NCBI RefSeq assembly: GCF_012275375.1
Contig: NZ_JAAZQJ010000002.1
Span: 62,001 to 126,000, forward strand
Source: Dyella sp. SG609
GTDB taxonomy: Bacteria; Pseudomonadota; Gammaproteobacteria; Xanthomonadales; Rhodanobacteraceae
Length of the DNA stretch: 64,000 bases
Reading direction: 5' to 3'
The notes under the pieces are model-generated. The model saw only the letters and a list, made by a program, of their open reading frames with translations. It made no database searches and was not told where the DNA came from. Below are positions 1,158-15,261 of this stretch, piece by piece. The position numbers and the translations under genes were made by a program. Numbering within the stretch: position 1 is the stretch's first letter; each line of letters starts with the position of its first letter.

Positions 1158-2378
1158 TCAGTTGCACAGATCGCGCTGGAAATCCGAGAGCGAACTGCTC
1201 CACTGCGAGTGGTTCATGTCGCCCATGATGTCGATGATGACGTAGTCGGGATTGGCGCTGTTGACGAAGTTCTGCTTGGCCTGGCGTGCGTTGAAGTTGA
1301 ATCCGGCAGCGCGCGGATCGGTGGACTGCCAGGTGTAGTACTTGCAGGAGCCGCCCTCGCGCCGGCCCGCATCGGGGTTCGGCACGATGGACATGGTCTG
1401 GCGGCCGTTGTGCCGCGCCCAGTTGATCGCTTCCCACGCGGCCTTGGTGGCATTGGAGTCGTTCCACGGCACGCTGGCGCTGACGATCGGCATCTGGGCG
1501 GCGTTGTCGTTGTGCTGCGCCTGGGCGCCGGCCCAGCAGCCCAGGAAGTCCGGGATGCTCAGCCAGGTCTGGAACGCGGCGATGCCGCGGTCGTCGTTTT
1601 CGGCCTCGGGGTCGTTCGAGTAGGCGGTCAGCTCGCCATCGTTGATCTGCGGAATGATCTTCAGCCCGTTCAGATGGTTATGCCAGGCGTATTGGTAGCA
1701 GGTGTCCGCGCCGTTATAGCGAGTGTCGTTGAACAGCGCCTTGCTGGCGAAGAACTTCAGGTAGACCGAATTCCTGGCGCCGCGGGATGCCCAGTTCTGG
1801 ACGATCTGGCCGGCCTTTTGCAGGATGTTCGGGTCCTGGATGTCGAGGATGATCATGAAGTCCCTGCTGCGCAGGATGTCGCCTCGATTGGCATTCAAGT
1901 AGCCCAGCAGGCCGTCCAGCGTCTGCATGTACGAGCTGAAGTCGCCGTCCGCGCCCCAGTTCACGATCTGGCCGTTCTTGCCGTAGACCTTGAGCTTGGT
2001 GTTCTGCCAATGATGCGCGTTGTCCTTGTCCACCCAGTGGGCGCCCGGCGGCCTGCCGCTCAGCGCACCGTCGATCGGGTTGTAGTTGCCGCCGGCGAAA
2101 TCGTCGCGGGTGGTGCGATTGGCGATCTGGTCGTGCGTCACCATGACCTGGCCATCGGAGGAAAGCCGCAGATCGAGCTCGACGCCCTTGAGCCCCATGT
2201 CGTAGGCGCGCTGAATGGCGAAAAAGGAGTTTTCCGGCAGATTCCAGCGATCGGTGGCGTCGTGAAAGATGCCGCGATGGGCCACCAGATGCGAGGCCGA
2301 GGCCAGGCTGGGCGCGAGCAGCGCCGTGGCAACGGCGGCCATCAGGCATTTGCTGAACTTATTGAGCGAAAGCTTCAT
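1158..2378 (-). CDS. Secreted PLC-like / GDPD-fold phosphodiesterase
   Basis: A 406-residue protein of the PLC-like phosphodiesterase (glycerophosphodiester phosphodiesterase) fold. The chosen ATG at 2378 begins a Sec signal peptide ending near SLASA and has GGAG about 11 nt upstream. A longer frame to 2465 adds 29 residues that would bury the signal. Mature-end motifs match the GDPD active site: VAHRGIFH (catalytic His), a PENS turn, the acidic pair in VELDLRLSSDG (metal ligands) and VTHD (second His). The body after about residue 100 is longer and more divergent than bacterial GlpQ, nearer to eukaryote-like PLC-like enzymes, so the substrate is open. Two adjacent Cys/Trp-rich stretches near the C-terminus suggest disulphides. 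It stands alone and converges on the autotransporter. Confidence 0.8.
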   Translation of the reverse strand: MKLSLNKFSKCLMAAVATALLAPSLASASHLVAHRGIFHDATDRWNLPENSFFAIQRAYDMGLKGVELDLRLSSDGQVMVTHDQIANRTTRDDFAGGNYNPIDGALSGRPPGAHWVDKDNAHHWQNTKLKVYGKNGQIVNWGADGDFSSYMQTLDGLLGYLNANRGDILRSRDFMIILDIQDPNILQKAGQIVQNWASRGARNSVYLKFFASKALFNDTRYNGADTCYQYAWHNHLNGLKIIPQINDGELTAYSNDPEAENDDRGIAAFQTWLSIPDFLGCWAGAQAQHNDNAAQMPIVSASVPWNDSNATKAAWEAINWARHNGRQTMSIVPNPDAGRREGGSCKYYTWQSTDPRAAGFNFNARQAKQNFVNSANPDYVIIDIMGDMNHSQWSSSLSDFQRDLCN

Positions 2379-2873
2379 AAACGAACGAACTCCAGTCGGT
2401 GGATAACGGTTGAAGGTTGGTTTTCGGTCGGGCATCGGTAAAACCAGGCACGCGGACGCCCGCAACGGCGCGAAGCGTCGAAGTTCGATTTCGATAAGCG
2501 GGTGGACATCCTTGTCCTAATGTTTTGTGGCGGCCGTCATGCCCGTTCGGGCCGCTTTGCGGTACTCGATTTACGTGAGGCGGCTAGAAGCCTCGCGATT
2601 AATTCGGGTGGCGATTCCTTTAATTGTGACGAGCTTTACTGCGCAGCTATTGAGCGTTTGGAAGGTGGCTTAATTACGCGGCCGGCGACATGTCCAATCA
2701 GGTCAATATCTGCTTTGAAGCGGAAATTGCGGAGAGATGCTCAAGCGCTGTTTCTGGTCCGCGCCGTCGCTGGAAAATGTCATAATCGCGCCGCGTTGAA
2801 TTCCTGGTGCAATGTCTTCTTCCGGGCCATCAATGGCCTGATGGAATATCGGTAAAACAAAAAACCTCAAGCC

Positions 2874-2901
2874 CGTCATTCCGGCCTGCGCCGGAATGAC
2901 G
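2874..2901. repeat. REP-like dispersed palindrome in a gene-free gap
   Basis: A perfect 11-bp inverted repeat, CGTCATTCCGG (2874-2884) and CCGGAATGACG (2891-2901), with a 6-nt CCTGCG loop. This core is a widespread intergenic repeat in Proteobacteria. It is the only structured element seen in 2379-2961, which otherwise holds the promoter side of the phosphodiesterase gene and no convincing gene. It lies about 60 bp beyond the ROK stop, so it may also form the 3' end of that operon's transcript. Confidence 0.75.
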
Positions 2902-2961
2902 CCTTGTAGCAAGTGGCCGGCCACCGCGCCATGCGCGATGGCAGCCATCGGCTCTACGTAT

Positions 2962-4128
2962 TCACTCGAACAGCCGCTCCTTCAGCGGCACCAGCGCGGC
3001 ACCGATCGCCGACGCATCGCCATTGGTTTCGGCCAGCACCAGCCTGGGGCGGTCGGGCCCCATGCCATAGCGATGGATCTCCAGAAAACAGGCGCGTTCG
3101 ATCAGCATGCGGCCCAGCGGCAACGGCAACTGGCCGCCGAACACGATGGCTTCCGGATCGAACAGCCCGGCCAGCGCATTGATGGTGCGGTTGAGCGCGG
3201 GCAGGCTGCGCTGGATCCAGCGCTCCACGCCGGGCCAGGTGGGATCGAAGCGCTGGCGCAGATCCTCCACCGAATCCACCATCACGCCGTGGGCCCGCAG
3301 CTCGTCCATCAGCGAGCGCAGGGTAGGGCGGTGCATGGCTTCCTCGGTGGTGAACAAGGTGAGCTCGCCGGCATTGCCATGCGTGCCGAACAGGGGCTTG
3401 CCGTCGAGCACGATGCCCGCGCCGAAACCGTAGTTGAAGGCGAGGTAGGCGAAGTTGCGCGCCCACAAGCCGGCACCCAGCAGGCTTTCGCCGATGGCGG
3501 CGGTGGTGGCGTTGTTTTCCAGCCATACCGGCAGGCGCAAGGCCTCTTCCAGGATCGGCGCCAGCTCGATCAGCGACCAGTCCTGCAGCGGCTCGGAGGC
3601 ATTGACCTGGCTGCGGCCGGCGATAAAGAAACCGGCGATCGCCACACCGGCGCCGATCAGGCGCTCGCGCGCCACGCCGTTGCGCGCCAGCATGCGCTCC
3701 AGCGCATCGACGATGGCGGCCAGCGAGGCCTTTCGATGCGTGGGCGGCGTGCGGATATGCACCTCTTCCAGCACGCGGCAGCCCAGGTCGGCCAGGCACA
3801 GCGTGATCGAATCGGTATTGATCGAGATGCCCACGCTGCAGGCCGCCTCGCGCACCAGTTCGATGCGCGGGCTGGGCTGGCCGCGCCCGTTGGGGATGGC
3901 GGCGCCGGCGCGCAGCAGGCCGCGCTCGATCAGCTGTTCGACCAGGCGATGCACCGATTGCTGGGCCAGATCGGTCTCGGCGGCGATAGCCGCGCGCGCG
4001 ATCGCGTCATGGCGGCGCACGATGTTCAGGATCATGCGTTCGCTCGGCGACAGCGCCAGTTCGCCCGGAGGTTTCGCGCGCGGCGCCTTCGCCGCGGTGC
4101 CTGCCGATTTTTTCCTGGTGGTGCTCAT
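2962..4128 (-). CDS. ROK-family transcriptional regulator
   Basis: A 388-residue repressor of the ROK (NagC/XylR/Mlc) type. After a basic, Lys/Ala-rich tail of about 25 residues comes a winged helix-turn-helix (ILNIVRRHDAIARAAIAAET, then QQSVHRLVEQLIERGLL, about residues 33-75). The sugar-kinase-like ROK fold follows, with GVGISIN-type and NYGFGAGIVLDG segments. The usual GHM and Cys-rich zinc signature is degenerate here (HGNAGELTLF), as in several ROK regulators that no longer bind zinc tightly. ATG 4128 is preferred over 4176 because it sits 4 bp after the stop of the upstream phosphatase gene. As last gene of the operon it is the likely local repressor of the transport cluster, responding to the imported sugar. 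Confidence 0.85.
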   Translation of the reverse strand: MSTTRKKSAGTAAKAPRAKPPGELALSPSERMILNIVRRHDAIARAAIAAETDLAQQSVHRLVEQLIERGLLRAGAAIPNGRGQPSPRIELVREAACSVGISINTDSITLCLADLGCRVLEEVHIRTPPTHRKASLAAIVDALERMLARNGVARERLIGAGVAIAGFFIAGRSQVNASEPLQDWSLIELAPILEEALRLPVWLENNATTAAIGESLLGAGLWARNFAYLAFNYGFGAGIVLDGKPLFGTHGNAGELTLFTTEEAMHRPTLRSLMDELRAHGVMVDSVEDLRQRFDPTWPGVERWIQRSLPALNRTINALAGLFDPEAIVFGGQLPLPLGRMLIERACFLEIHRYGMGPDRPRLVLAETNGDASAIGAALVPLKERLFE

Positions 4129-4132
4129 GGCC

Positions 4133-4954
4133 TCAACCGACCTCCGGATGCGATAAACGTGGCGCGCCCTGGGCATGGCCGCCGGCCAGCAGGATAGACC
4201 AGCAGGGCATGGCTGCCTGCATCAAGGCCGGCGTGCCCGCGGCGACACTCACCGTGCCCGCCTCGGCGGAAACGGTGGATTCGACCAGCAGCCCGGCTTC
4301 GCGGCACAGCGCCATGCCGGCGGCGATGTCCCAGGTGTGGGTGCGATCCTCGAAGTAGCCATCGATATAGCCGAGCGCCGCGAAGCCCAGGCCCACGCTG
4401 GCGCAGCGATAGCGGGCGCAGGTCCACTGGTGCTGCCGCAGATGCGCCTCGAGCGCCGCCGTCTGCGCGACATCCCAGCGCGCATTGCCGCCGATCGCCG
4501 CCACGCGCACCTCGGGAAACGGCACCGAGCGCCTGGCCGGCTTGCCGCCGACGAACAGGCCCAGGCCCGCGGCGGCGGCCAGGCTCATGCCCAGCGCGGG
4601 ATAGCAGATGGCGCCGACGACGGGCTCGCCATCGCGCACATATGCCACGGCCACGCCCCACAACGGCGAGCCGCGCAGGAAATGGCTGGTGCCGTCGATG
4701 GGGTCCAGCACCCAGCCGCAGGCAGCCGCCTCGCCGCCAAGCTCCTCGCCGACGATGGCTTCGCCGGGGACGTGCAGGGCCAGCTCGTCGCGCAACCGGC
4801 GCTCCACCGCCGTGTCCGCCTCGCTGGCGAAATCCATGCGTCCCTTGCTGCTGGCGGCCAGCTGTTCGCGCGCGCCGAAATAGCGGCGGGCGAGCTGGCC
4901 GCCGCTTTCGGCCACGCGCATGGCGAGGGTCAGGCGCGCCGGCAGGCCGATCAT
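4133..4954 (-). CDS. Inositol-monophosphatase-family sugar phosphatase
   Basis: A 273-residue cytoplasmic phosphatase of the Mg2+-dependent IMPase/FBPase fold. Metal and phosphate motifs are complete: GEE at 69-71, DPIDGT at 84-89, and the C-terminal WDIAAG motif carrying the third metal-binding Asp. The start overlaps the ABC ATPase stop (ATGA, 4951-4954), so the two are translationally coupled. Its place inside a sugar-import operon with a 2H phosphoesterase suggests it removes the phosphate left after a phosphodiester is cut, as AccG does in agrocinopine catabolism. That substrate assignment is inference. Family members also act on inositol, histidinol, glucosylglycerol and arabinose phosphates. 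Confidence 0.85.
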   Translation of the reverse strand: MIGLPARLTLAMRVAESGGQLARRYFGAREQLAASSKGRMDFASEADTAVERRLRDELALHVPGEAIVGEELGGEAAACGWVLDPIDGTSHFLRGSPLWGVAVAYVRDGEPVVGAICYPALGMSLAAAAGLGLFVGGKPARRSVPFPEVRVAAIGGNARWDVAQTAALEAHLRQHQWTCARYRCASVGLGFAALGYIDGYFEDRTHTWDIAAGMALCREAGLLVESTVSAEAGTVSVAAGTPALMQAAMPCWSILLAGGHAQGAPRLSHPEVG

Positions 4955-6033
4955 GCGGCGGTCTCCGCGCCATCGCCGGGGAGGCGTTCGCCGGTGGCCG
5001 GATCGAAGCGGCGGATCGCGGCCGGCGGGAAGCCCAGGCACAGCATCTCGCCGGGTCGATACGGGCGCCGGCTGCTGTCGATGGCGAGGACGCGCTGGCC
5101 GCCGATGCGCGCATAGACCACCCGATGGCTGCCGAGATCTTCCACCGCTTCCAGCGTGGCGGCGATGCCGCCCGGCACGTCCAGCACGATCGCCTCCGGG
5201 CGGATGCCGAGCACCACCGGCATCGCCTGGCCGGCGTGCTGGCGCATGCGCAGCCGGCCGCCGTGCTCGATGACGGCGTGATCGCCTTCGTGCCACGCGT
5301 CCAGCATGTTCATCGGCGGCGTGCCGATAAAGCCGGCGACGTACGCCGTGCGCGGCTGGTGATAGAGCGCCATCGGCGTATCGGCCTGCTCGACGCGCCC
5401 CTGGTTCAGCAGTACCACGCGGTCGGCCAGGGTCATCGCTTCCACCTGGTCGTGCGTGACGAAGATCGTGGTGGCGCCGATCTCGTCGTGCAGCCGGCGC
5501 AGCTCCACGCGCATGTCGTGGCGCAGCTTGGCATCGAGATTGGACAGCGGCTCGTCGAACAGCAGCACGCGCTGGCGGCGCGCGATGGCGCGGCCGATGG
5601 CGACGCGCTGGCGCTGGCCGCCGGACAGCTGCGCCGGCTTGCGTTCGAGCAGGTCGCGCAGGCCCAGCAGCTGCGCCGCCTCGCCGATGCGCCGCTCCCG
5701 CTCGGCGCGTTCGAGGCCGGCCAGCTTGAGCGCGTAGCCGATGTTGTCGCGCACGCTCATATGCGGATAGAGCGCGTAATTCTGGAAAACCATGGCGCAA
5801 CCGCGGTCCTGCGGCGCCATCCGCGTCACGTCGGCGCCGCCGATGCTCACCGTGCCGTGCTCGGCTTCCTCCAGGCCGGCAATCACCCGCAGCAGGGTCG
5901 ACTTGCCGCAGCCGGACGCGCCGAGCACCACGGTGAACGCCCCTGCGGCAAATTCGAGATCGAGCCGGTCGATGACCGCGCGCTGGCCGTAGCGCTTGCA
6001 CAGGCCGCGCACCTGGATGGCCGCGCCGCTCAC
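4951..6033 (-). CDS. ABC transporter ATP-binding protein (UgpC/MalK type)
   Basis: A 360-residue ATPase of the CUT1 carbohydrate importer class. Walker A GASGCGKST is at 38-46, the Q-loop at 84, signature LSGGQ at 136-140, Walker B LLFDEP at 157-162 and the H-loop His at 194. The C-terminal third is the MOI/TOBE regulatory domain typical of UgpC/MsmK/MalK, including VLGIRPE. The start is GTG 6033, overlapping the permease stop as GTGA. An apparent upstream ATG at 6138 lies inside the permease gene and is rejected. It powers the two permeases encoded just upstream. Confidence 0.95.
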   Translation of the reverse strand: MSGAAIQVRGLCKRYGQRAVIDRLDLEFAAGAFTVVLGASGCGKSTLLRVIAGLEEAEHGTVSIGGADVTRMAPQDRGCAMVFQNYALYPHMSVRDNIGYALKLAGLERAERERRIGEAAQLLGLRDLLERKPAQLSGGQRQRVAIGRAIARRQRVLLFDEPLSNLDAKLRHDMRVELRRLHDEIGATTIFVTHDQVEAMTLADRVVLLNQGRVEQADTPMALYHQPRTAYVAGFIGTPPMNMLDAWHEGDHAVIEHGGRLRMRQHAGQAMPVVLGIRPEAIVLDVPGGIAATLEAVEDLGSHRVVYARIGGQRVLAIDSSRRPYRPGEMLCLGFPPAAIRRFDPATGERLPGDGAETAA

Positions 6034-6920
6034 TTGCCCGCTCCGGTCACGCCGCGCACGAACCAGCGCTGGGTCAGGCCGATCACCAGCAGCGGCGGCG
6101 CCAGCGCGATCAGCGCGGCCGCCATCACCAGGTTCCATTCCGGCGGCTGGCCCGTTTCGGTGGGCAGGAAGCTGGCGATGCCAAGCGCGATGGTGCGCAT
6201 CTCAGGGCGGCTGGTGGCGACGAGAGGCCACATGTAGTCCTTCCAGGTAGTGAGAAACACGATGGTGCCGAGCGCGGCGAAATTCGCCTTCGACAGGGGC
6301 AGCAGGATGTCGACGAAGAAGCGCCATGCGCCGGCGCCGTCCATGCGCGCCGCCTCGGCGAGCTCCGCCGGCACGGTGAGGTAGAACTGGCGGAACAGAA
6401 AGGTGCCGGTGGCCGAGGCCATCAGCGGCAGCGACAGGCCGGCATAGCTGTCGAGCAGGTTCAGCGACACGCGCAGGTGCAGTCCGGTGCAGGCCGCGAG
6501 CACCGCGCGCAGCGGTTCGAGCAGATCGGAGGCCACGGCGTAAGTGGGCACGATGCGCACTTCCAGCGGCAGCAGCAGCGTGGCGAAGATGCCCCAGAAC
6601 ACCACGTGGCGCATGCGCGAGCGGAAGTACACCACCGCGAATGCGCTGGTCGAAGCCAGCGCCAGTTTGCCGGCCACCACGATCAGCGCCACCACCAGGC
6701 TGTTCAGCAGCATGTGCCCGATATCGGCGCGATGCAGCACCGCGGCGAGGTTCTCCAGCAGATGCCCGCCCGGCGCCAGCGCCAGGCCGTGCAGCAGGAT
6801 CTGCCGGCTGGTCACCGAGGCCGAGCACAGCGCCAGGTAGAGCGGCCCCAGCGCAAACACCAGACTGAGCATCAGCAGCAGCAAGGTGAGCAGCTTCAGT
6901 ACGGGATGGCGTTCGATCAC
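6030..6920 (-). CDS. ABC sugar permease, UgpE-like
   Basis: A 296-residue inner-membrane permease with six predicted transmembrane segments and the cytoplasmic EAA loop (ELAEAARMDGAG, then DILLPLSK) that docks on the ATPase. It ends with the RWFVRGVTGAGK tail characteristic of the UgpE/MalG side. The start is GTG 6920, sharing GTGA with the stop of the first permease. The longer frame to 7574 is out of register with the real upstream gene. Together with the 6917-7810 product it forms the heterodimeric channel. Confidence 0.93.
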   Translation of the reverse strand: MIERHPVLKLLTLLLLMLSLVFALGPLYLALCSASVTSRQILLHGLALAPGGHLLENLAAVLHRADIGHMLLNSLVVALIVVAGKLALASTSAFAVVYFRSRMRHVVFWGIFATLLLPLEVRIVPTYAVASDLLEPLRAVLAACTGLHLRVSLNLLDSYAGLSLPLMASATGTFLFRQFYLTVPAELAEAARMDGAGAWRFFVDILLPLSKANFAALGTIVFLTTWKDYMWPLVATSRPEMRTIALGIASFLPTETGQPPEWNLVMAAALIALAPPLLVIGLTQRWFVRGVTGAGK

Positions 6921-7810
6921 CGGAAGCCCTCCTGCCGCGCGCGGCGTTCCATGGCCGCGAACTGCGCCGCGATGGCGGCAAGCAGCAGGAGCATCAACAG
7001 CATCGACAGCGCCGAGGAGCCGGACAGGTCCAGCCCGACGAAGCCGTCGCGATAGGCCCGGTAGGCCAGGATGCCGGTGGCGCCGCCCGGGCCGCCCTGC
7101 GTCATGGTGTCGACGATGGCGAAACTGTTGGTGATGGAATCGACCAGGTTCATGGTCGCGACGAAGAACAGCTGCGGGCGGATCATCGGGATCTGGATAT
7201 CGAGCAGCCGGCGCAGCGGCCCGGCGCCGTCGATCGCCGCCGCGGCCAGATAGTCGGCGGGAATCGAACGCAGCGCCGCCACCAGCACGATGAAGTCGAA
7301 CGGAATCTGCGTCCAGGCAAAGGCGGCCACCACCAGGGCCATGGCCTGCGCGCCATCCAGATGCGGCTGCCAGACATGCGGCCACAGCCGGTTGAGGTAA
7401 GCCATCGGCCCGATGCCCGGGCTGGCGGCGGCGCGCAGGATCACGCCCAGCACGGAGCCGGCGACGGCGTACGGCCAGATCAGCAGATAGCGGAACAGCT
7501 TGCCGCTGCGGCGATGGAATTCCACCATCCATGCCAGCGCCAGCGCGGCCGCCACCGACAAGGCGACACCGCACAGCGAAAACACGGCGGTGCTGAGCAG
7601 CGATGCGTAGAGGCTGGCGTCGCCCAGTTCACGCCGGTAGTTGTCCAGGCCGACGAAGCGCGTGCAATGGCCGAACGGGCACTCCAGGTGCAAGGACCAC
7701 CACAGCCCCTTCCAGCTCGGCCAATAGAAGAACCACGCGATCAGCACCAGCTGGGGCAGGCCGAGCGCCAAGGGCATCCAGCGGCCGTGGAAGCGCGCGC
7801 TGGTCTTCAT
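6917..7810 (-). CDS. ABC sugar permease, UgpA-like
   Basis: A 297-residue inner-membrane permease with six transmembrane segments and an EAA loop (YLAAAAIDGAG, then DIQIPMIRP). The periplasmic stretch after the first helix contains two Cys (ECPFGHC). The segment TQGGPGGAT in the last loop is a hallmark of UgpA/MalF-type permeases. ATG 7810 overlaps the binding-protein stop as ATGA, so translation is coupled. Confidence 0.93.
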   Translation of the reverse strand: MKTSARFHGRWMPLALGLPQLVLIAWFFYWPSWKGLWWSLHLECPFGHCTRFVGLDNYRRELGDASLYASLLSTAVFSLCGVALSVAAALALAWMVEFHRRSGKLFRYLLIWPYAVAGSVLGVILRAAASPGIGPMAYLNRLWPHVWQPHLDGAQAMALVVAAFAWTQIPFDFIVLVAALRSIPADYLAAAAIDGAGPLRRLLDIQIPMIRPQLFFVATMNLVDSITNSFAIVDTMTQGGPGGATGILAYRAYRDGFVGLDLSGSSALSMLLMLLLLAAIAAQFAAMERRARQEGFR

Positions 7811-9135
7811 GGCTGGCTCCGTGCCGTGCCGGCATAGGTGGCCTGGAAGCGCGCGAGCAGCAGATTGCCGCGCGCCTGCGCATGCGCAAGGGCGTCGTCC
7901 ATGCTTTGCCGCCCGGCCAGGGCGCGCTGCACTTCCTCCTGCCAGATCAGCCGGAACAGCGACATGAAGCCCAGCCGCGCGCCGGCGCTGTAGGCATTGC
8001 CGGGCAGGGCCATCGAGGCCAGGCCGACGCGGATGGCGGCCGGCTCGCCCAGCGGCGAGGCTTCCAGCTGCCGCTGCGCCTCGCGCGTGAGCGGCAGATA
8101 GCCGGTGCGCGCGGAGAACAGCCGTTGCTGCCGCGGCTCGCGCAGATACGCCAGAAACCGCGCCGCCGCCGGATAGACGGCGGCAGGCTTGCCCTTGAAT
8201 ACCCATAGCGACGAGCCGCCGATGGTATTGCCGTAGCGGGCGGCGCCGGCATACGCCGGCAAGGGCCCGACCTCGGCGTCGACGATGCCGGCCTTGAGCA
8301 CGATGGCATACGAGCCGGTGGAGTCGAGCGACAGCGCGCATTCGCCATCGGCAAAGGCCAGGGGCTGATCGCCGGCATGCGTCAGCACCGCGGGCAGCAG
8401 CAGCCCTTGCGCATGCCAGCGCGCCACGTCGCGCATGTAGCGGCGGTGGATGCCGTCGGCAAACGCATAGCGCGCGGCAAGACCGTCGCGCCCATTGCCG
8501 GCGCTGGCGATCGGCGCACCGGCCGCGGCATTGACCTGGTCCAGCATCTTCCAGGGCGTGAAGTCGGCGACGGCGGGGCAGCTTTCGCCATGCGCCTTGA
8601 GCGCCCGCAGGGCCTGCTCGAACGCTTCCCAGGTCCGCGGCAGCCCGGGAATGCCGGCTGCCGCGAGCTTGCCGCGGTTGCCGTACAGCACCAGGGTGGA
8701 GGTGCCGAACGGCTGCGAGAACAGGCGGCCGTCCGCGGCGGCATAGTAGCGGCGGATGCCGTCCAGGTAATCGGCGTCGTCGACGGCCTGGCCGTTGTCC
8801 TTCATCAGCGCATCCACCGGGTAGATGGCTTCGCTGTGCAGCATGTCGGCGGTGCCGATGTCGTAGATCTCCACCAGCGCGGGGGGCTGGCCGGCGCGAT
8901 AGGCCGCCACTGCCTTGCGCAGGGTCTGCTCGTAGGTGCCTTGCGACAGGCAATGCACGTGGTCCTGCGGGTGGGTCGCGTTGAAACCGTCGCAGAGCTC
9001 GTCGATGGCCTGCGCGTACAGGCCGCCATGCGCATACCAGAATTCGACCTCCGCGGCCCGGCCGGCCAGCGGCGCCGCGGCGGCGAGCGCCCACAGCGCG
9101 CAGGCAAGCCGGCGTGCGGCCGCGCGGCCGATCAT
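7807..9135 (-). CDS. UgpB-like extracellular solute-binding protein
   Basis: A 442-residue periplasmic binding protein with a Sec signal peptide ending at about residue 27 (GRAAE). Line by line it resembles UgpB more than maltose-binding proteins: VEFWYAHGG at the start, GTYEQTLRKAVAAYRAG, the ligand-site stretch SQPFGTSTLVLY, FTPWKML, and TGYLPLTREA near the C-terminus. In E. coli the UgpB pocket binds sn-glycerol-3-phosphate and glycerophosphodiesters, so a phosphorylated ligand is plausible here, although the contacts cannot be verified by eye. ATG 9135 overlaps the stop of the 2H phosphoesterase gene (ATGA). Confidence 0.9.
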   Translation of the reverse strand: MIGRAAARRLACALWALAAAAPLAGRAAEVEFWYAHGGLYAQAIDELCDGFNATHPQDHVHCLSQGTYEQTLRKAVAAYRAGQPPALVEIYDIGTADMLHSEAIYPVDALMKDNGQAVDDADYLDGIRRYYAAADGRLFSQPFGTSTLVLYGNRGKLAAAGIPGLPRTWEAFEQALRALKAHGESCPAVADFTPWKMLDQVNAAAGAPIASAGNGRDGLAARYAFADGIHRRYMRDVARWHAQGLLLPAVLTHAGDQPLAFADGECALSLDSTGSYAIVLKAGIVDAEVGPLPAYAGAARYGNTIGGSSLWVFKGKPAAVYPAAARFLAYLREPRQQRLFSARTGYLPLTREAQRQLEASPLGEPAAIRVGLASMALPGNAYSAGARLGFMSLFRLIWQEEVQRALAGRQSMDDALAHAQARGNLLLARFQATYAGTARSQP

Positions 9136-9842
9136 GCGCCGTGCTCCTGCCGCCGCAGCAGGAAACGATTGTCGAAAGCCAGCATGTCGTTGAACGTGCA
9201 GAACTCCGGGGCGCCAAGCGCGATGACGCCGAGCGGCGCCACCAGCTCGCTGTACAGCTGGCTATGCACCGCCAGGGCCTGCTTCACCGCATCCAGGCTC
9301 AGCAGCTTGATGAGATAGGAGTGCGTGATGTGGAACGCATAGCTGTCGTGCCACGGCGTGCGCATGCCCAGGTGCTGCGCCAGGCGATCGCGCAGCCCGC
9401 GCAGCTTGTGCGCTTCCGCGGCATCGGCCGGCACCAGGCGCATCGCGCCGATCATCAGCTGCTGGCCGGGTTCGTCGAGCTTCATGCGCAGGGGCAGCTC
9501 GCAGCCCAGGTCGAACGCGCGCAGCTTGCCGTCCATATGGCGCGTGCATTGGGCCATCGTCGCATTGAGCGGCAGCGCCGCCGGCCAGCGCTCGCGGGTG
9601 CGGGCAAGATCGTTGGCACCCTCGAATACCGTCATGTGGTAGCTCTCCGGCGGCAGCGTCGCCAGGGCGTCGGCATGGGGAGCGGCGCCGATCCGGTCGC
9701 GCACGGCGGTCAGCGCATCCGACAGCGGCGTGAACAGCGGCACGTGGCAGAGCAGCGTGTTGCCCGGAAAGCGCAGCACATGGCCGTGCGCATCGAACTT
9801 CTGGTCCAGGTGGGTAAGCGGCTGGTGGTACTTGCTGAGCAT
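9132..9842 (-). CDS. DUF1868 / 2H phosphoesterase superfamily protein
   Basis: A 236-residue cytoplasmic protein with the two H-x-T motifs of the 2H (LigT/CPDase) fold: YHMTVFEG (His69, Thr71) and FHITHSYL (His171, Thr173). Spacing and overall length match the DUF1868 family. 2H enzymes cut 2',3'-cyclic or linear phosphodiesters without metal. The gene is the second in an operon of eight, 59 bp after the TonB receptor and coupled (ATGA) to the binding protein. A phosphodiesterase embedded in an Ugp-like importer operon suggests it opens the imported phosphodiester, replacing the GDPD-type UgpQ of enteric ugp operons. Direct biochemical function is not known for the family. Confidence 0.85.
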   Translation of the reverse strand: MLSKYHQPLTHLDQKFDAHGHVLRFPGNTLLCHVPLFTPLSDALTAVRDRIGAAPHADALATLPPESYHMTVFEGANDLARTRERWPAALPLNATMAQCTRHMDGKLRAFDLGCELPLRMKLDEPGQQLMIGAMRLVPADAAEAHKLRGLRDRLAQHLGMRTPWHDSYAFHITHSYLIKLLSLDAVKQALAVHSQLYSELVAPLGVIALGAPEFCTFNDMLAFDNRFLLRRQEHGA

Positions 9843-9901
9843 GATGAGTGTCTGCCGGGGTGGCTGGAGAAGCCGATGGCTTCAGGCGGCGCGGAGCGCG
9901 T

Positions 9902-12667
9902 TCACAGCGAATGCGGGGTGTACTTCACGCCCACCCAGTAGGTACGGCCGATCGAGAAGCTGTCCTTCAGCAGGTCGTGCGCCCGCCCGGTGACGCTGGT
10001 CACCGGCGAGCGGGTGAGGTTGGCGATCTCGAAGAAGGTCTGCACATCGCTGCCGACGTTGCGGTACAGGCGCAGGTCGATCTCCTTGCGCGCCTTCCAG
10101 TACACGTCCTGGCTGGGCAGGGCGCTGTCGACCAGGCGCAGGCTGCGCGAGGTCCAGTGATAGCCCAGGTCCACGCCGGTGCCGCCGCGGTGGTAGAACA
10201 CGCTGAAGTTGCGGATCTGGCCGGGCTGGTTCACCAGGCCGTCGATGACGCGCGTGGCGCCCGACGAGGTGACGGCGTCCAGGCGTCCGCGCAGGAAGGT
10301 CGCGTTGCCGCTGTAGCCGGCGCCGGCCAGCCAGGGCGCGAGCCACTCCAGGCTGCCGTTGGCGAAGTTGAGTTCCGCGCCATTGAGCTGCGAGCGCGAG
10401 GCATTCATCGGCTGCGCAATGGCGGCGATGCGGTCGGCACCGCCGAAGAACACGCTGCCGACGCTGTTGAGGGTGTAGATCTCGTCGCTGATCCGCTTGT
10501 GGAACAGCGCCGCCGACAACAGGCTGTCGTGCGGCAGGAACCATTCCGCCGAGCTGTCCAGGTTGAGCGACTGGCGCGGCTTGATCGCCGGATTGCCGCG
10601 CGTCACGCCGATGCTGCCGTCGGTGTTCTGGCTATAGGTGGTGTTGGGCGCGTAGGCGTCGTAGGTCGGCCGGCCGATGGTCTTGCTGGCGGCAAGCTTC
10701 AGGCGCACGGCGTCGGTGGCGTTGAAGACCAGCGAGGCGGCGGGCAGGGTGAAGCGGTACTGCGAGCGCAGGGTCTGCGGCTGCCATTGCGTCGCGCCGC
10801 CCACGATCTGCCGCACGTTGCCGGTGGTCGACAGCCAGGTGTCGTCCTGGCGCAGTCCGGCCAGCACGCTCAGGCGTTCGGTCTTGTAGCTGCCCATGAG
10901 GTACGCGGCGGCGGTGTCCTCGGCATGGGAGTAATTGCCCTGCAGGCTGTTGGCGGCATTGCTGGCGTAAGCGGCGGCATGCGTGCTGGCCGCCAGCTGC
11001 GCCCAGGACTGGCGCGGGTCGATCTGCAGGAAGGGCAGGTTGCTGCCGGGCAGCGTCCCGCCGATGCTGCCGGCGCCGGCCAGCGTGTCGCCGGGCGACG
11101 TGGCGACGAACTGCTGGTAGAACTCGTTGTAGCGATGTTGCAGCCGGCGCGCATCGACGCCGGCGGCGTAACCGAAGCCGCGGGCGTCGCCGTCCAGGTT
11201 CTGGCGGAAATCCAGCTTCAGGTCGCCGACGCTGTCGTCGATGCTGATGGTGTCGTGGCGCCAGTACACCGCATTGAAGTTGTTGAGGTCGGCGAAGCCG
11301 GCCGGATTGGCCAGGCTGACGCCGGGCAGGAAACCCGAGGTGTCGTAGCTCATGGCCAGGCCGGGCGTGCCAGTGATCGCCACGCCGCCGGCGCCGTTGT
11401 ACTTGAATGCGCCGTAGGCGTACTTGCTCAGGGCGACGGGATTGCGGTCGCTCGCGGAGGAATACGAGGCGCGCGCGGACAGCAGCTTGTCTTCGCCGAT
11501 ATGCCAGTCGAAACCGCTCTGGGCGAAGCGGTCCTCGCGCTTGAGCGTGCCCTGCATCCGGCCGACCTCCGCTTCGCCGCGCGCGAAGGCGCCGGTGCTG
11601 GCGGTCTGGCCGAGCACGGGATTGGGGCCGGTGGAGCGGCTGTCGTCCAGGAACACTTCGTTGCGAGAGGAATGGACTGCCTCGGCGTTGGCGCCGAACG
11701 ACAGGAAGCCATACAGGTCCGGCGCGAACTGCGCCTCCAGCTTGCCGTCCAGGCCCTTGCGCTGCAGGTTCTCCGGAAAGCGCCAGTACTTGAACTGCTG
11801 CGGCACCGGGATCCCGTTGCCGAAGGCGGGGCCGCCGGTGGCCGGATTGTTGGCGTTGGCGCCGTTGGCGCCGTAGTAGTTGTAGAAAATGTTGTCGCTG
11901 GTCATGCGGCCCAGCGAATACAGATTGCGGTTTTCGACGTTGGCCGCGAGCACCAGGCCCAGCCTGTGGTCCGGGCCGAACGTGGCGCTGAATACCGCAT
12001 CGCCTTTCCGCCCCAGGCCCTGGTTCGCCGACAAGGCCTTGCCGGTGCCGGTCGCGTGGCCGAGTGCCGCCGTCACGCTGGCATAGGTGCGCCCCTGATG
12101 GTCGAACGCGCTGCGCGTGACGATATTGATCGAGCCGCCGACGGCGTTCGGGTCCTGGTCCGGCTGCCAGGTCTTGTACACGTCCACTTCCTGCACCAGC
12201 GAGGCCGGCAGCAGATCGGTCCGCACGCCGCGGCTCACCCGGTCGGTGGTCGCCATGGGCGCGCCATCGAAGCTGATGTTGTTGTAGCTGGCGTCGAGGC
12301 CGCGGATGGCGATCTGCTGCGCCTCGTCGCGGCCGTTGACGTTGTCGGAGTTGAAGCTGGCCGAGACGCCCGCCACGCGCTGCACGGCCTGCGGGATATT
12401 CAGGCTGGGCAGCGCCTGGATCTGTTCGCTGGTGGCCGCGTCCATGACGCGGTCCTGGGTCTGCTTGGCGGCGATAGCGATGCCGATCGGCGCCAGTTCG
12501 CCGCTGACCCGCACATCGGCGAGCGTCTTGGCCTTCGACTGTTCGGGCGCGGTGCCGGGCGCGGCGCCGGTTTCGCCCGCCAGGTTCACGCCCGGCAGGG
12601 CCGCCAGAATCGCCATGGCCAGCAGGGACAGCCGGCGGCCATGCGGTCGTTCGGTGTGCTTGAGCAT
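9902..12667 (-). CDS. TonB-dependent outer-membrane receptor (sugar-type)
   Basis: A 921-residue receptor. ATG 12667 gives a Sec signal (LSLLAMAILAALPGVNLAG) after a basic head. The longer frame to 12736 adds an implausible leader. The plug domain carries IRGLDASYNNISFDG and VGGSINIVTRS, with the DVYKTWQPDQDP insertion typical of the large 'TonB-dependent receptor' class linked to carbohydrate loci. The barrel ends in YWVGVKYTPHSL, so the final aromatic is displaced by a few residues. No STN domain is visible, so signalling to an anti-sigma factor is unlikely. As first gene of the operon, it supplies the periplasm with the substrate that the binding protein and ABC transporter then import. 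Confidence 0.93.
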   Translation of the reverse strand: MLKHTERPHGRRLSLLAMAILAALPGVNLAGETGAAPGTAPEQSKAKTLADVRVSGELAPIGIAIAAKQTQDRVMDAATSEQIQALPSLNIPQAVQRVAGVSASFNSDNVNGRDEAQQIAIRGLDASYNNISFDGAPMATTDRVSRGVRTDLLPASLVQEVDVYKTWQPDQDPNAVGGSINIVTRSAFDHQGRTYASVTAALGHATGTGKALSANQGLGRKGDAVFSATFGPDHRLGLVLAANVENRNLYSLGRMTSDNIFYNYYGANGANANNPATGGPAFGNGIPVPQQFKYWRFPENLQRKGLDGKLEAQFAPDLYGFLSFGANAEAVHSSRNEVFLDDSRSTGPNPVLGQTASTGAFARGEAEVGRMQGTLKREDRFAQSGFDWHIGEDKLLSARASYSSASDRNPVALSKYAYGAFKYNGAGGVAITGTPGLAMSYDTSGFLPGVSLANPAGFADLNNFNAVYWRHDTISIDDSVGDLKLDFRQNLDGDARGFGYAAGVDARRLQHRYNEFYQQFVATSPGDTLAGAGSIGGTLPGSNLPFLQIDPRQSWAQLAASTHAAAYASNAANSLQGNYSHAEDTAAAYLMGSYKTERLSVLAGLRQDDTWLSTTGNVRQIVGGATQWQPQTLRSQYRFTLPAASLVFNATDAVRLKLAASKTIGRPTYDAYAPNTTYSQNTDGSIGVTRGNPAIKPRQSLNLDSSAEWFLPHDSLLSAALFHKRISDEIYTLNSVGSVFFGGADRIAAIAQPMNASRSQLNGAELNFANGSLEWLAPWLAGAGYSGNATFLRGRLDAVTSSGATRVIDGLVNQPGQIRNFSVFYHRGGTGVDLGYHWTSRSLRLVDSALPSQDVYWKARKEIDLRLYRNVGSDVQTFFEIANLTRSPVTSVTGRAHDLLKDSFSIGRTYWVGVKYTPHSL

Positions 12668-12966
12668 AAGGTTCCCGTGCTTCGGATAAGGGGCGCGGCG
12701 GTGCGGTCGCCAGCGCGGACCGGGGAACAATATCACTCATCATGTGTCATATTATTTACAATCCTGGCGGACAAGGAAAAGTCCCGCTTCACCCGCACCG
12801 AGGCCTGAAAAGACCTTGAAAAATAGCTGTGTCGATGATGTGCGCAGAACCGCCTCGGAGCGGAGTGTCGCCGTCGGGCGACCGATCGCATCGCGGCCCG
12901 GGTAATTAAGTAACTTTATGAGTAATATTGCGTCGCGCAATGTCGCGCACTTCCGGGCAGGCAAGC
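12668..12966. promoter_or_regulatory. Divergent control region with palindrome at 12927-12941
   Basis: This A+T-richer spacer separates the divergent TonB receptor operon and the GH32-like gene, so both promoters must lie here. At 12927-12941 is a 15-bp palindrome, ATTGCG-TCG-CGCAAT, a good candidate operator. It ends 25 bp before the ATG of the hydrolase. The stretch 12728-12765 (ATCATGTGTCATATTATTTACAAT) is the most promoter-like part on the receptor side. Assignment to the ROK regulator is inference. Confidence 0.45.
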
Positions 12967-13989
12967 ATGGCGTTTCGCCTCGACGATCGTTGGGTATGGG
13001 ATTTCTGGTTTGCGCAGGACGGCGGGCGCACGCACCTGTTCTTCCTGCAGGCGCCCAAGTCGCTTGGCGATGCGAACAAGCGCCACTGGCACGTGTCGAT
13101 CGGGCACGCCGTCTCGGACGACCTGGTGAACTGGGCGGAGCAGGAAACCGCGCTGCGGCCGGCGGCATCCGCCGCGTGGGACGACTACACCACCTGGACC
13201 GGCACCGTGCTGCGGGCGCCGCAAGGGCACTGGCTGATGTTCTACACGGGGACCTCCCGCGCAGAACAAGGCCTGATCCAGCGCATCGGCCTGGCCACCT
13301 CGCCGGATCTGCGGCGCTGGGAGCGCTCACCGCGCAACCCCGTCCTGCAATTGCCCGACAACCGGCTTTACGAAACGCTGGATCGGGACGCCTGGTACGA
13401 ACAGGCCTGCCGCGACCCGTGGATCTTCCCCGACCCGGACGGCCGCGGCTGGCACATGGTCTTCACCGCGCGCGAGCCGGACGGCCCGAGCATCGGCCGC
13501 GGCGTCATCGGCCACGCCACCTCCGACGACCTGGAACAATGGACGCTGCAGCCGCCACTGTTCCGTTCGCGCGTGTTCGCGCATATGGAAGTGCCGCAGA
13601 TCTTCTGCTGGCAGGGGCGCTGGTATTGCCTGTTCTGCACGGCCGCGAACCTGATCGACAGCGATTACGCCCGCGGCGCGATGTCCCGGCCGATGACCGG
13701 CACGCACTACCTGATGGCGGACCATCCGCTCGGCGAGTGGCGCCTGGTGCCGGGAGATTTCCTGGTGGGCGATCCGGCCGGCAGCCTGTATGCGGGACGG
13801 GTGCTGCCGGCGCCCGATGGCGGCCTGCGTTTCATGGCCTTTCGCAAGAACGGCGCAAACGGTGCGTTCATTGGGGAGCTGTGCGATCCCATGCCGGTGA
13901 CGGTCCGCGCGGACGGAACCTTGCAGGTGGATACAGCGGCCGTTCCCGCCGCTGATAGATTTTGTAATGCCGATCCGCAAATAAGTTAA
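12967..13989 (+). CDS. GH32-like five-bladed beta-propeller glycoside hydrolase
   Basis: A 340-residue cytoplasmic protein (no signal) of clan GH-J type (GH32/GH68). The three catalytic landmarks are present in order: WDFW with nucleophile Asp12, CRDP with transition-state Asp150, and EVP with acid/base Glu208 (the canonical GH32 motif is ECP). Repeating IGHAVSDDLVNW/IGHATSDDLEQW blade motifs are clear. It lacks the C-terminal beta-sandwich of typical invertases and is short for the family. ATG 12967 is chosen because homology starts there; TTG 12928 and ATG 12940 are in frame. Divergent from the transport operon, it probably hydrolyses a fructoside-like product after uptake. A GH43-like specificity remains possible. 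Confidence 0.75.
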   Translation: MAFRLDDRWVWDFWFAQDGGRTHLFFLQAPKSLGDANKRHWHVSIGHAVSDDLVNWAEQETALRPAASAAWDDYTTWTGTVLRAPQGHWLMFYTGTSRAEQGLIQRIGLATSPDLRRWERSPRNPVLQLPDNRLYETLDRDAWYEQACRDPWIFPDPDGRGWHMVFTAREPDGPSIGRGVIGHATSDDLEQWTLQPPLFRSRVFAHMEVPQIFCWQGRWYCLFCTAANLIDSDYARGAMSRPMTGTHYLMADHPLGEWRLVPGDFLVGDPAGSLYAGRVLPAPDGGLRFMAFRKNGANGAFIGELCDPMPVTVRADGTLQVDTAAVPAADRFCNADPQIS

Positions 13990-14040
13990 TCGGCTCCTTT
14001 GCTATATATCGCCGCTTTCCGGACTGGCGGGAGAGGCGGC

Positions 14041-15261
14041 ATGCGTCATCGGTTTCTGACATGGGCTTTGGGCGCTTCGCTATGCGCGTGCACGGCCGGC
14101 GCGCTGGCCGCCGGTTCGAACCATCGCGCCTGGGTCGACGCCTGGTCCGCCGTCCCCGATACCGCCGGCCCCGCGCTGAACGACCAGACCGTGCGCCAGA
14201 TCGTGCGGATCAGCGCCGGCGGCTCGGAGTTGCGCATCCGGCTGTCCAATCTGCTCGGCAATGCACCCGTTACGCTGGGCCCGGCGCATGTCGCGCTGCA
14301 TGCAAGCGGCGCGGATACCGTGCCCGGCAGCGATCGCCCGCTGCTGTTTCAGGGCCAGCCCACGGTGACGATCGCCAAGGGCGAAAGCGTCTTGAGCGAT
14401 CCGGTCAAGCTGGATGTGCGGGCCCTGCAGGAACTGGCGGTAAGCCTCTATGTGCCGGCCGCCGAGCAATATCGCGCTTCGACCGCGCACAATGCCGGCC
14501 AGGCCACCGCCTACATCACCGAAAGCGGCGACGCCGGTGCGGCAGCGGCATACCCAAGAGAAGAGGTGAGCGGCATGCGCTTCTTCCTCACCGACGTGGA
14601 GGTGTCCGGGCCTGCCGCCAAGTCCACGATCGTCACCTTCGGCGACTCGATCACCGACGGCGCCGGCTCCACCCAGGACGCCAACACGCGCTGGCCGGAT
14701 GCCCTGGCGGAGCGCCTGCAGGCCGAGCCCAGGCTTGCATCCATCGCCGTGGCGAATGCCGGCATCGGCGGCAACCGCATCCTGCATGACGGCTACGGAC
14801 CCAGCGCGCCGTCGCGCTTCGATCGCGATGCGCTGGACAAGCCGGGCGTGCGCTGGATCATCCTGCTGGAAGGCATCAACGATATCGGCGGCTCCGGCTA
14901 TGCATGGGACGCCAAGGACAAGGTCTCGGCGCAGCAGCTGATCGACGGCATGCAAGCCCTGATCGACCGCGCGCACGCCCGGCACGTGAAGATCTATGGC
15001 GCCACCCTCACGCCGTATGGCGGCAACGGCTGGCCCTACCACAGCGTTGCCGGCGAGAAGACCCGCCAGGCGGTGAACGAGTGGATCCGCCACGCCGGCG
15101 CCTTCGACGGCGTGGTGGATTTCGACCAGGCCATTCGCGATCCGGCGGCTCCGGAAAAAATGCTGCCCGCCTATGACAGCGGCGATCACCTGCATCCCAG
15201 CAGCGCGGGCTACAAGGCGATGGCGCAGGCGGTGGACCTGCGCTGGTTCGGCACGCCCTAG
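14041..15261 (+). CDS. Secreted SGNH/GDSL-family esterase
   Basis: A 406-residue exported hydrolase. The signal peptide ends at about residue 24 (ALAAG). All SGNH blocks are visible: block I TFGDSITDG with nucleophile Ser203, block II Gly in AGIGGN (241-245), block III GIND (Asn280) and block V DHLH (Asp382, His385). The N-terminal 190 residues form the extra beta domain found in secreted GDSL esterases that deacetylate plant or microbial polysaccharides. ATG 14041 has GGGAG 8 nt upstream and is preferred over 13999. It follows the GH32-like gene by 51 bp on the same strand and may share its transcript, although a TATATA box lies in the gap. Confidence 0.9.
   Translation: MRHRFLTWALGASLCACTAGALAAGSNHRAWVDAWSAVPDTAGPALNDQTVRQIVRISAGGSELRIRLSNLLGNAPVTLGPAHVALHASGADTVPGSDRPLLFQGQPTVTIAKGESVLSDPVKLDVRALQELAVSLYVPAAEQYRASTAHNAGQATAYITESGDAGAAAAYPREEVSGMRFFLTDVEVSGPAAKSTIVTFGDSITDGAGSTQDANTRWPDALAERLQAEPRLASIAVANAGIGGNRILHDGYGPSAPSRFDRDALDKPGVRWIILLEGINDIGGSGYAWDAKDKVSAQQLIDGMQALIDRAHARHVKIYGATLTPYGGNGWPYHSVAGEKTRQAVNEWIRHAGAFDGVVDFDQAIRDPAAPEKMLPAYDSGDHLHPSSAGYKAMAQAVDLRWFGTP

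Follow-up and report, generated by a model that had tools for sequence, protein, structure and literature searches.

The 64,000-nucleotide stretch of the Dyella sp. SG609 genome that we analysed (hereafter, the window) carries an operon of eight minus-strand genes, arranged head to tail from position 12667 down to 2962, which specify in order a TonB-dependent receptor, a 2H phosphoesterase of the PF08975 (DUF1868) family, a UgpB-like binding protein, UgpA- and UgpE-like permeases, a UgpC-like ATPase, an IMPase-family phosphatase and a ROK-family regulator; a GH32-like hydrolase gene is divergent from them (Table 1). This is probably a catabolic operon for a sugar-containing phosphodiester, with an importer, a cytosolic 2H enzyme, the IMPase and ROK control, and our preferred reading is that it represents a new form of XanP-type sugar-phosphodiester utilisation, located in the cytosol. 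The key 2H step is already known from XanP; what is new is the pairing of a cytosolic XanP-family enzyme with a Ugp-type importer and a phosphatase. A route of import, cleavage and dephosphorylation is partly supported, by conserved gene neighbourhoods, by phosphate contacts in the binding protein and by the published chemistry of XanP.

In the route that we envisage, the TonB receptor would bring the compound across the outer membrane, the UgpB-like protein with UgpAEC would pass it on, still intact, to the cytoplasm, where the 2H enzyme, a XanP relative, would cleave it to a sugar monophosphate, and the IMPase would remove the phosphate. For the GH32-like enzyme we see a possible role in splitting a fructosyl or similar bond of that product; the ROK protein would repress both transcripts, through paired sites in the divergent promoter region, until a pathway sugar or sugar phosphate appears. 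We infer the substrate, every reaction, the direction of regulation and any participation of a GDPD-like protein. Sugar phosphodiesters are known as private nutrients in two cases, agrocinopine and, since December 2025, xanthosan; if our reading is right, they would be a nutrient class for many more bacteria, and for finding further ones the operon supplies a candidate inner-membrane carrier with a pocket signature, a candidate operator and a set of named genomes.

The 2H enzyme and its relation to XanP

In Xanthomonas, xanT encodes a TonB-dependent transporter, xanP a co-transcribed 2H phosphoesterase and xanR is a ROK gene (Science, December 2025; PMC12807533). According to the available part of that report, purified XanP hydrolyses xanthosan, an intersugar phosphodiester, giving galactose-1-phosphate (Gal-1-P), mutation of either H-x-T/S motif abolishes this activity, and both xanT and xanP are induced by sucrose; the main text, to the extent available, names no inner-membrane carrier for xanthosan. 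A first-pass annotation of the window had regarded a 2H enzyme in the diester step as undescribed, which XanP, encoded beside a TonB receptor and a ROK gene, has made outdated. That annotation had also drawn a parallel with agrocinopine catabolism; its import, cleavage and dephosphorylation route is partly supported, but the closer parallel is xanthosan use, because XanP, a 2H enzyme from just such a neighbourhood, hydrolyses a sugar phosphodiester.

Both H-x-T motifs claimed for the window 2H enzyme are present (H69-M-T71 and H171-I-T173), to be compared with H99VT and H204IS in XanP-type proteins, and about 100 residues lie between the motifs. The enzyme matched PDB entry 2fsq (Atu0111) with an E value of 6e-28, and no export signal was seen when its N-terminus was inspected by eye. 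PF08975 occurs in 19 of the 398 genomes that we drew for the order to which the window belongs, and 13 of the 19 belong to one other, XanP-bearing genus, which we infer to be Xanthomonas. In 3 of 12 proteins of that genus (L099, L100 and L102) the motif positions are exactly H99-x-T and H204-x-S; a leader resembling the twin-arginine translocation (Tat) type is seen in 10 of the 12, and the chosen start hides it in the other two. No close UgpB was found in the 13 genomes (best matches, E 6e-11 or weaker). A TonB receptor lies directly beside the 2H gene in 4 of the 13, although the E limit of 1e-60 in the receptor search may hide further ones, and it is 30-31% identical to that of the window.

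The window operon is like the xan system, as far as the latter is described in the available text, in having a TonB receptor gene directly before the gene for a 2H enzyme with two H-x-T/S motifs, together with a ROK regulator. It differs from the xan system in that XanP-type enzymes have a Tat-like leader whereas the window 2H has no export signal, in the addition of an ATP-binding cassette (ABC) importer and a phosphatase, and in AvrBs2: no full AvrBs2-type protein turned up in a scan of the 11 proteins from 1158-15261 (the search for one went no further in the genome), and the AvrBs2 model matched the product of a secreted GDPD-like gene over a span of 62 residues (35 bits; cut-off, 1000). 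These features bear on the question of whether the substrate could be xanthosan itself, or the same galactose phosphodiester, obtained from plants colonised by Xanthomonas. The trio of TonB receptor, 2H and ROK genes is that of xanT, xanP and xanR, but the low identity of the receptors, the placement of the 2H enzymes in different parts of the tree, the AvrBs2 result and the fact that the available text of PMC12807533 mentions no GH32-like gene make this very improbable. Searches of the literature, mostly without subscription papers, found no paper on DUF1868 by name and nothing in which Ugp was combined with TonB-dependent, ROK, phosphodiesterase and Xanthomonas; from 2020 on, the combination of sugar phosphodiester, TonB-dependent, ABC transporter and phosphodiesterase returned only xanthosan.

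The agrocinopine phosphodiesterase AccF is GDPD-like, and the binding protein AccA belongs to SBP_bac_5. No AccF-type phosphodiesterase lies in the window operon, where the diester step is represented by the 2H gene and a GDPD-like gene, 583 bp off, encodes a secreted protein; likewise, the binding protein matches SBP_bac_8/SBP_bac_1 and UgpB, not the AccA type. The acc system (AccA-E, AccF and AccG; PMC4526662) is similar in its ABC import of an intact sugar phosphodiester and in the succession of a phosphodiesterase and a phosphatase in the cytoplasm, whereas the window operon stands apart in its binding protein, which is of UgpB/CUT1 type, in its use of a 2H fold on the diester, and in its TonB receptor and ROK regulator.

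The pocket of the binding protein

Pocket residues that hold G1P or glycerol-3-phosphate (G3P) were taken from the available part of the report on Phaeobacter UgpB (PMC12718374), and an offset of 20 puts all nine named residues on the right letters of chain 9lff. A pocket lacking phosphate contacts, which the earlier annotation had proposed to check for, is not what we observed: the window protein retains all 4 of the Phaeobacter phosphate contacts (Y68, S146, S272 and Y346), and also two hydroxyl contacts, G307 and R395. In place of Glu88 it has Asp (D92), the residue given for glycerophosphocholine- and trehalose-binding proteins (PMC12718374), and in place of the two-Trp clamp it has F192/W195, with Phe for Trp188. 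We compared eight binding proteins, from the window, from the six operon relatives described below and from Pseudomonas capsici. Y68, S146 and Y346 are found in all eight and S272 in five; every one of the eight has Asp for Glu88 and Phe or Tyr for the first clamp Trp, in contrast to the two solved UgpB chains that were aligned with them. Such a pocket is what would be expected, though it is not proof, of a protein binding a phosphate compound in which the other half is something else than plain glycerol.

These substitutions also bear on ordinary scavenging of G3P or glycerophosphodiesters, by a Ugp system with an unusual phosphodiesterase. In keeping with such a system, the UgpC-like ATPase scores just above the NCBI cut-off (433 vs 432 bits), UgpB, UgpA and UgpE score best to Ugp models, and the phosphate contacts are retained; the UgpB, UgpA and UgpE scores are under the equivalog cut-offs (244/411, 235/335 and 274/297, respectively). 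We nevertheless consider it quite unlikely, in view of the altered Glu88 and clamp positions in 8 of 8 proteins, the absence of UgpQ from the coupled operon, and the presence of a dedicated TonB receptor and a GH32-like gene, which would be superfluous for G3P. Compared with E. coli UgpBAEC-Q, then, the window operon shares the importer family and the phosphate contacts, and differs in its glycerol-clamp residues, in having a 2H enzyme and an IMPase in the place of UgpQ, and in having an outer-membrane receptor of its own.

Occurrence of the gene set in other genomes

Genome contigs were scanned with a six-member 2H alignment, and the best 80 of 120 relatives are the loci counted here; they are weighted to close kin and include near-duplicates (two Duganella, several Komagataeibacter). 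The pairing of DUF1868 with Ugp genes, which the first-pass annotation had left to be checked, is not confined to the window's genome: the 2H gene accompanies UgpB, UgpA and UgpE in six others among the 80 loci, namely Dyella acidisoli, D. nitratireducens, Rhodanobacter A1T4, Trinickia symbiotica, a Caballeronia and an uncultured Ralstonia. The six operons include a ROK gene in every case and the IMPase, the TonB receptor and UgpC in four cases each; the GH32-like gene is present at four of the six loci (both Dyella, Rhodanobacter A1T4 and Trinickia symbiotica). The receptor of Dyella acidisoli is 78% identical to that of the window. In a quick tree, made without bootstrap, the seven 2H enzymes from operons with UgpBAE, that of the window among them, group as a single clade (SH-aLRT 95), and no signal was seen in any of them. 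In Pseudomonas capsici, UgpBAEC is divergent from a signal-bearing 2H gene.

Could the importer serve an unphosphorylated sugar, with the 2H enzyme doing an unrelated job? ROK regulators, TonB receptors and CUT1 importers are common in sugar loci, but the phosphate contacts are kept, the 2H and UgpB genes overlap by 4 bp and their pairing is kept in six other genomes, and we give this explanation hardly any weight.

Of 197 genomes drawn from the window's family, 5 have PF08975, the window's own among them; the five other genomes listed for the genus gave no match, and one more family member came from a second draw. The locus is therefore sporadic and has probably moved between lineages.

Some further genes were observed at the relatives' loci. 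In Trinickia, Caballeronia and Ralstonia, small ExbB-, ExbD- and TonB-like genes lie between the receptor and 2H genes (Trinickia ExbB alone was confirmed with Pfam). A gene for a Tat-type phosphoesterase of the phospholipase C family lies between 2H and UgpB in Caballeronia (L016 10714-12837) and in Ralstonia (L019 5728-7866; Pfam-confirmed). Also, a DUF1868 gene on an E. coli IncFIA plasmid (L114 6878-7678) has a toxin-antitoxin pair on one side and plasmid partition genes on the other, and no sugar gene is annotated in the stretch inspected.

The divergent promoter region and the GH32-like hydrolase

Comparison of intergenic regions disclosed two candidate operator sites, A and B (Table 1), which an automatic palindrome search (≤1 mismatch) had missed. 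In the four relatives with a GH32-like gene (L012-L015), the best matches to site A were 25/25, 23/25, 22/25 and 19/25, against 0 of 200 shuffles each and shuffle maxima of 16; the Trinickia (L015) match sits on the GH32 side. Site B has a clear counterpart in L014 (23/25) and weaker ones in L013 and L015 (17/25), and an 18/25 operator match was observed upstream of the Caballeronia receptor. A half-site pattern gave two exact matches in the 5.1 Mb genome, one for each site; since the pattern was designed from the window's own two sites, we place weight only on the absence of other exact matches and on conservation in relatives. The ROK protein would bind at sites A and B.

The divergent hydrolase gene that had been assigned to clan GH-J is indeed present. 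Translation probably begins at ATG 12967 and not at TTG 12928, since the residues ahead of the Met at 12967 are not conserved in four relatives. The protein, of about 340 amino acids, matched the N-terminal propeller domain (72 bits), and this length would leave little room for a C-terminal beta-sandwich, as though it consisted of the catalytic propeller only. No signal was seen. Three acidic residues, D25, D163 and E221 (numbered from TTG 12928), are invariant in 5 sequences and are candidates for catalytic roles. With a structure model of moderate confidence (pLDDT 70), used for fold class only, Foldseek ranks 1-33 were all fructosyl-active enzymes, with query TM-scores of 0.60-0.67, and on this model the protein is a predicted short member of the GH-J fold class. 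A place for it in the pathway, as first proposed, is favoured by the shared candidate operator and by its retention at four of the six other Ugp-operon loci, whereas the substrate ascribed to it is a guess; a fructosyl-containing diester, or induction by sucrose, would fit.

Two proposed arrangements of 2H loci

Signal calls on the 80 2H proteins, made by eye from N-termini of which several have uncertain starts, gave 23 proteins without and 57 with an N-terminal signal. IMPase neighbours were found at 7 of the 23 signal-less loci and at 0 of the 57 signal-bearing loci, and PAP2 phosphatase neighbours at 7 of 57 signal-bearing loci and 0 of 23 signal-less loci; these counts lean towards the pattern, since signal-less loci supplied the IMPase search seeds and a signal-bearing locus supplied the PAP2 seed. 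An ABC importer lies beside the 2H gene at 15 of the 23 signal-less loci vs 1 of the 57 others, as sought with Ugp-type and rhizobial seeds only, plus L079 by eye, so that importers of other types may have escaped notice. A signal-less 2H goes together with another ABC importer at eight alphaproteobacterial loci and on a Deinococcus plasmid, and the same order is seen on an annotated plasmid of Rhizobium. Signal-less 2H genes for which no importer was found are those of L059 and of seven acetic-acid-bacteria loci (L081-L085, L088 and L091).

By this pattern, an outside arrangement, in which the diester would be cleaved before uptake, would comprise a signal-bearing 2H enzyme, a PAP2 phosphatase and a carrier of the major facilitator superfamily, and an inside arrangement, in which it would be taken up whole and cleaved afterwards, a signal-less 2H enzyme, a dedicated ABC importer and an IMPase. 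We keep it as a hypothesis, because few independent changes underlie it. As a statistical test, the match between compartment and transporter was discarded: the tree holds only 5 and 4 changes, with which a sign (independent-pairs) test cannot reach 0.05. We are evenly divided on the broader proposal that XanP-family 2H enzymes underlie a widespread class of loci for scavenging sugar phosphodiesters, in these two topologies; the window would belong to the inside type, and its Ugp-type importer would have been adapted to a compound of this kind. As a separate observation, Rhizobium vallis (L086 2870-10639) has ROK, ABC importer, GDPD, IMPase and 2H genes in a row, an alphaproteobacterial counterpart.

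Several observations weigh against reading the operon as a sugar-phosphodiester pathway of XanP type. Parts of the set appear dispensable, since the locus of Dyella nitratireducens is without TonB receptor and IMPase, that of Rhodanobacter A1T4 without TonB receptor, that of Caballeronia without UgpC and IMPase, and that of Ralstonia without UgpC; moreover, the Caballeronia receptor is in two overlapping pieces. The phosphate contact S272 is Ala in three close relatives (both Dyella and Rhodanobacter). The window receptor is 37-38% identical to receptors elsewhere in genomes of the XanP-bearing genus, vs 30-31% to the 2H-adjacent ones, and is therefore not simply XanT. Ahead of the Ralstonia receptor gene no operator match rose above chance, and when two mismatches were tolerated the half-site pattern had 4 genome matches vs 3 for a reversed control. 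The match of compartment and transporter comes down to few independent events on the tree.

Organization of the operon and neighbouring genes

The list and order of genes from TonB receptor to ROK, as given by the first-pass annotation, were borne out throughout by Pfam and NCBIfam matches (Table 1). Five consecutive junctions, from 2H through IMPase, have 4-bp overlaps (with GTG as the chosen start for UgpE and UgpC), the IMPase-ROK spacing is 4 bp and the TonB receptor-2H spacing is 59 bp; because of these overlaps and short gaps, the operon was rightly called coupled. Directly after the GH32-like gene, on the same strand, is an SGNH/GDSL hydrolase gene (13999-15261), which had no match in the 80 relative loci at E 1e-6.

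Table 1. Features of the operon and of its surroundings (positions in the window)
Feature	Position	Strand	Evidence or remarks
TonB-dependent receptor (outer-membrane uptake)	9902..12667	-	TIGR01782, 441 bits
2H phosphoesterase (PF08975/DUF1868)	9132..9842	-	PF08975, 115 bits vs cut-off 21
UgpB-like substrate-binding protein	7807..9135	-	PRK10974, 244 bits; 4aq4, E 6e-60
UgpA-like permease	6917..7810	-	PRK10561, 235 bits
UgpE-like permease	6030..6920	-	PRK10973, 274 bits
UgpC-like ATPase	4951..6033	-	PRK11650, 433 bits
IMPase-family phosphatase	4133..4954	-	PF00459, 145 bits; GEE / DPIDGT / WDIAAG motifs intact
ROK-family regulator, N-terminal winged helix	2962..4128	-	PF00480, 87 bits, with MarR_2 and HTH_24
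GH32-like (clan GH-J) hydrolase, divergent	12967..13989	+	PF00251, 72 bits
Secreted GDPD-like protein, operon membership uncertain	1158..2378	-	PF03009, 47 bits, first 54 profile positions
Candidate operator site A	12729..12753		upstream of TonB receptor; imperfect 25-bp palindrome, read by eye
Candidate operator site B	12905..12929		upstream of GH32-like gene

GDPD-like genes

The secreted GDPD-like gene (2378-1158), a neighbour absent from the earlier annotation, lies 583 bp beyond the ROK gene on the same strand. Its product matches the GDPD profile in the first quarter only, and its HRG, PENS, ExD and HD residues are conserved in 5 aligned proteins; a structure model with a mean pLDDT of 40 was not used. 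We did not keep this protein as the operon's own enzyme, because a search of 197 family genomes at E 1e-15 returned it from a single one, its own. Elsewhere, GDPD-like genes lie within 9 kb of the 2H gene in 8 of the 80 loci (by phmmer; three of them weak, 28-34 bits) and in L032 (by Pfam), and in Trinickia the ROK gene is followed by one for a distant secreted GDPD. In another family member (L010 9602-14234), genes for a TonB receptor, a GDPD and a signal-bearing 2H are adjacent on one strand, with the GDPD between the other two.

Possibly, a secreted GDPD-like or other extracellular enzyme cuts a larger phosphodiester through attack of a neighbouring hydroxyl and so leaves a cyclic sugar phosphate, which the operon imports and the 2H enzyme opens. 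Many 2H enzymes are known to act on cyclic phosphates, and the GDPD-like genes near 2H genes, including that of L010, are in keeping with this route. However, XanP acts on an intersugar diester and gives Gal-1-P, by the available account (PMC12807533), and the window GDPD, besides its restriction to a single family genome, has no counterpart in the fetched flanks of either Dyella locus; we judge this route unlikely, and prefer cleavage of an imported intact diester.

The window's genome has four GDPD matches. It also has a single paralog of the window receptor at the E limit of 1e-60, which lies beside a gene for an NAGPA-type phosphodiester glycosidase and a divergent secreted GDPD (L110 5509-10976; contig C1 782000-794731), and this arrangement hints at a second sugar-phosphodiester locus in the same bacterium.

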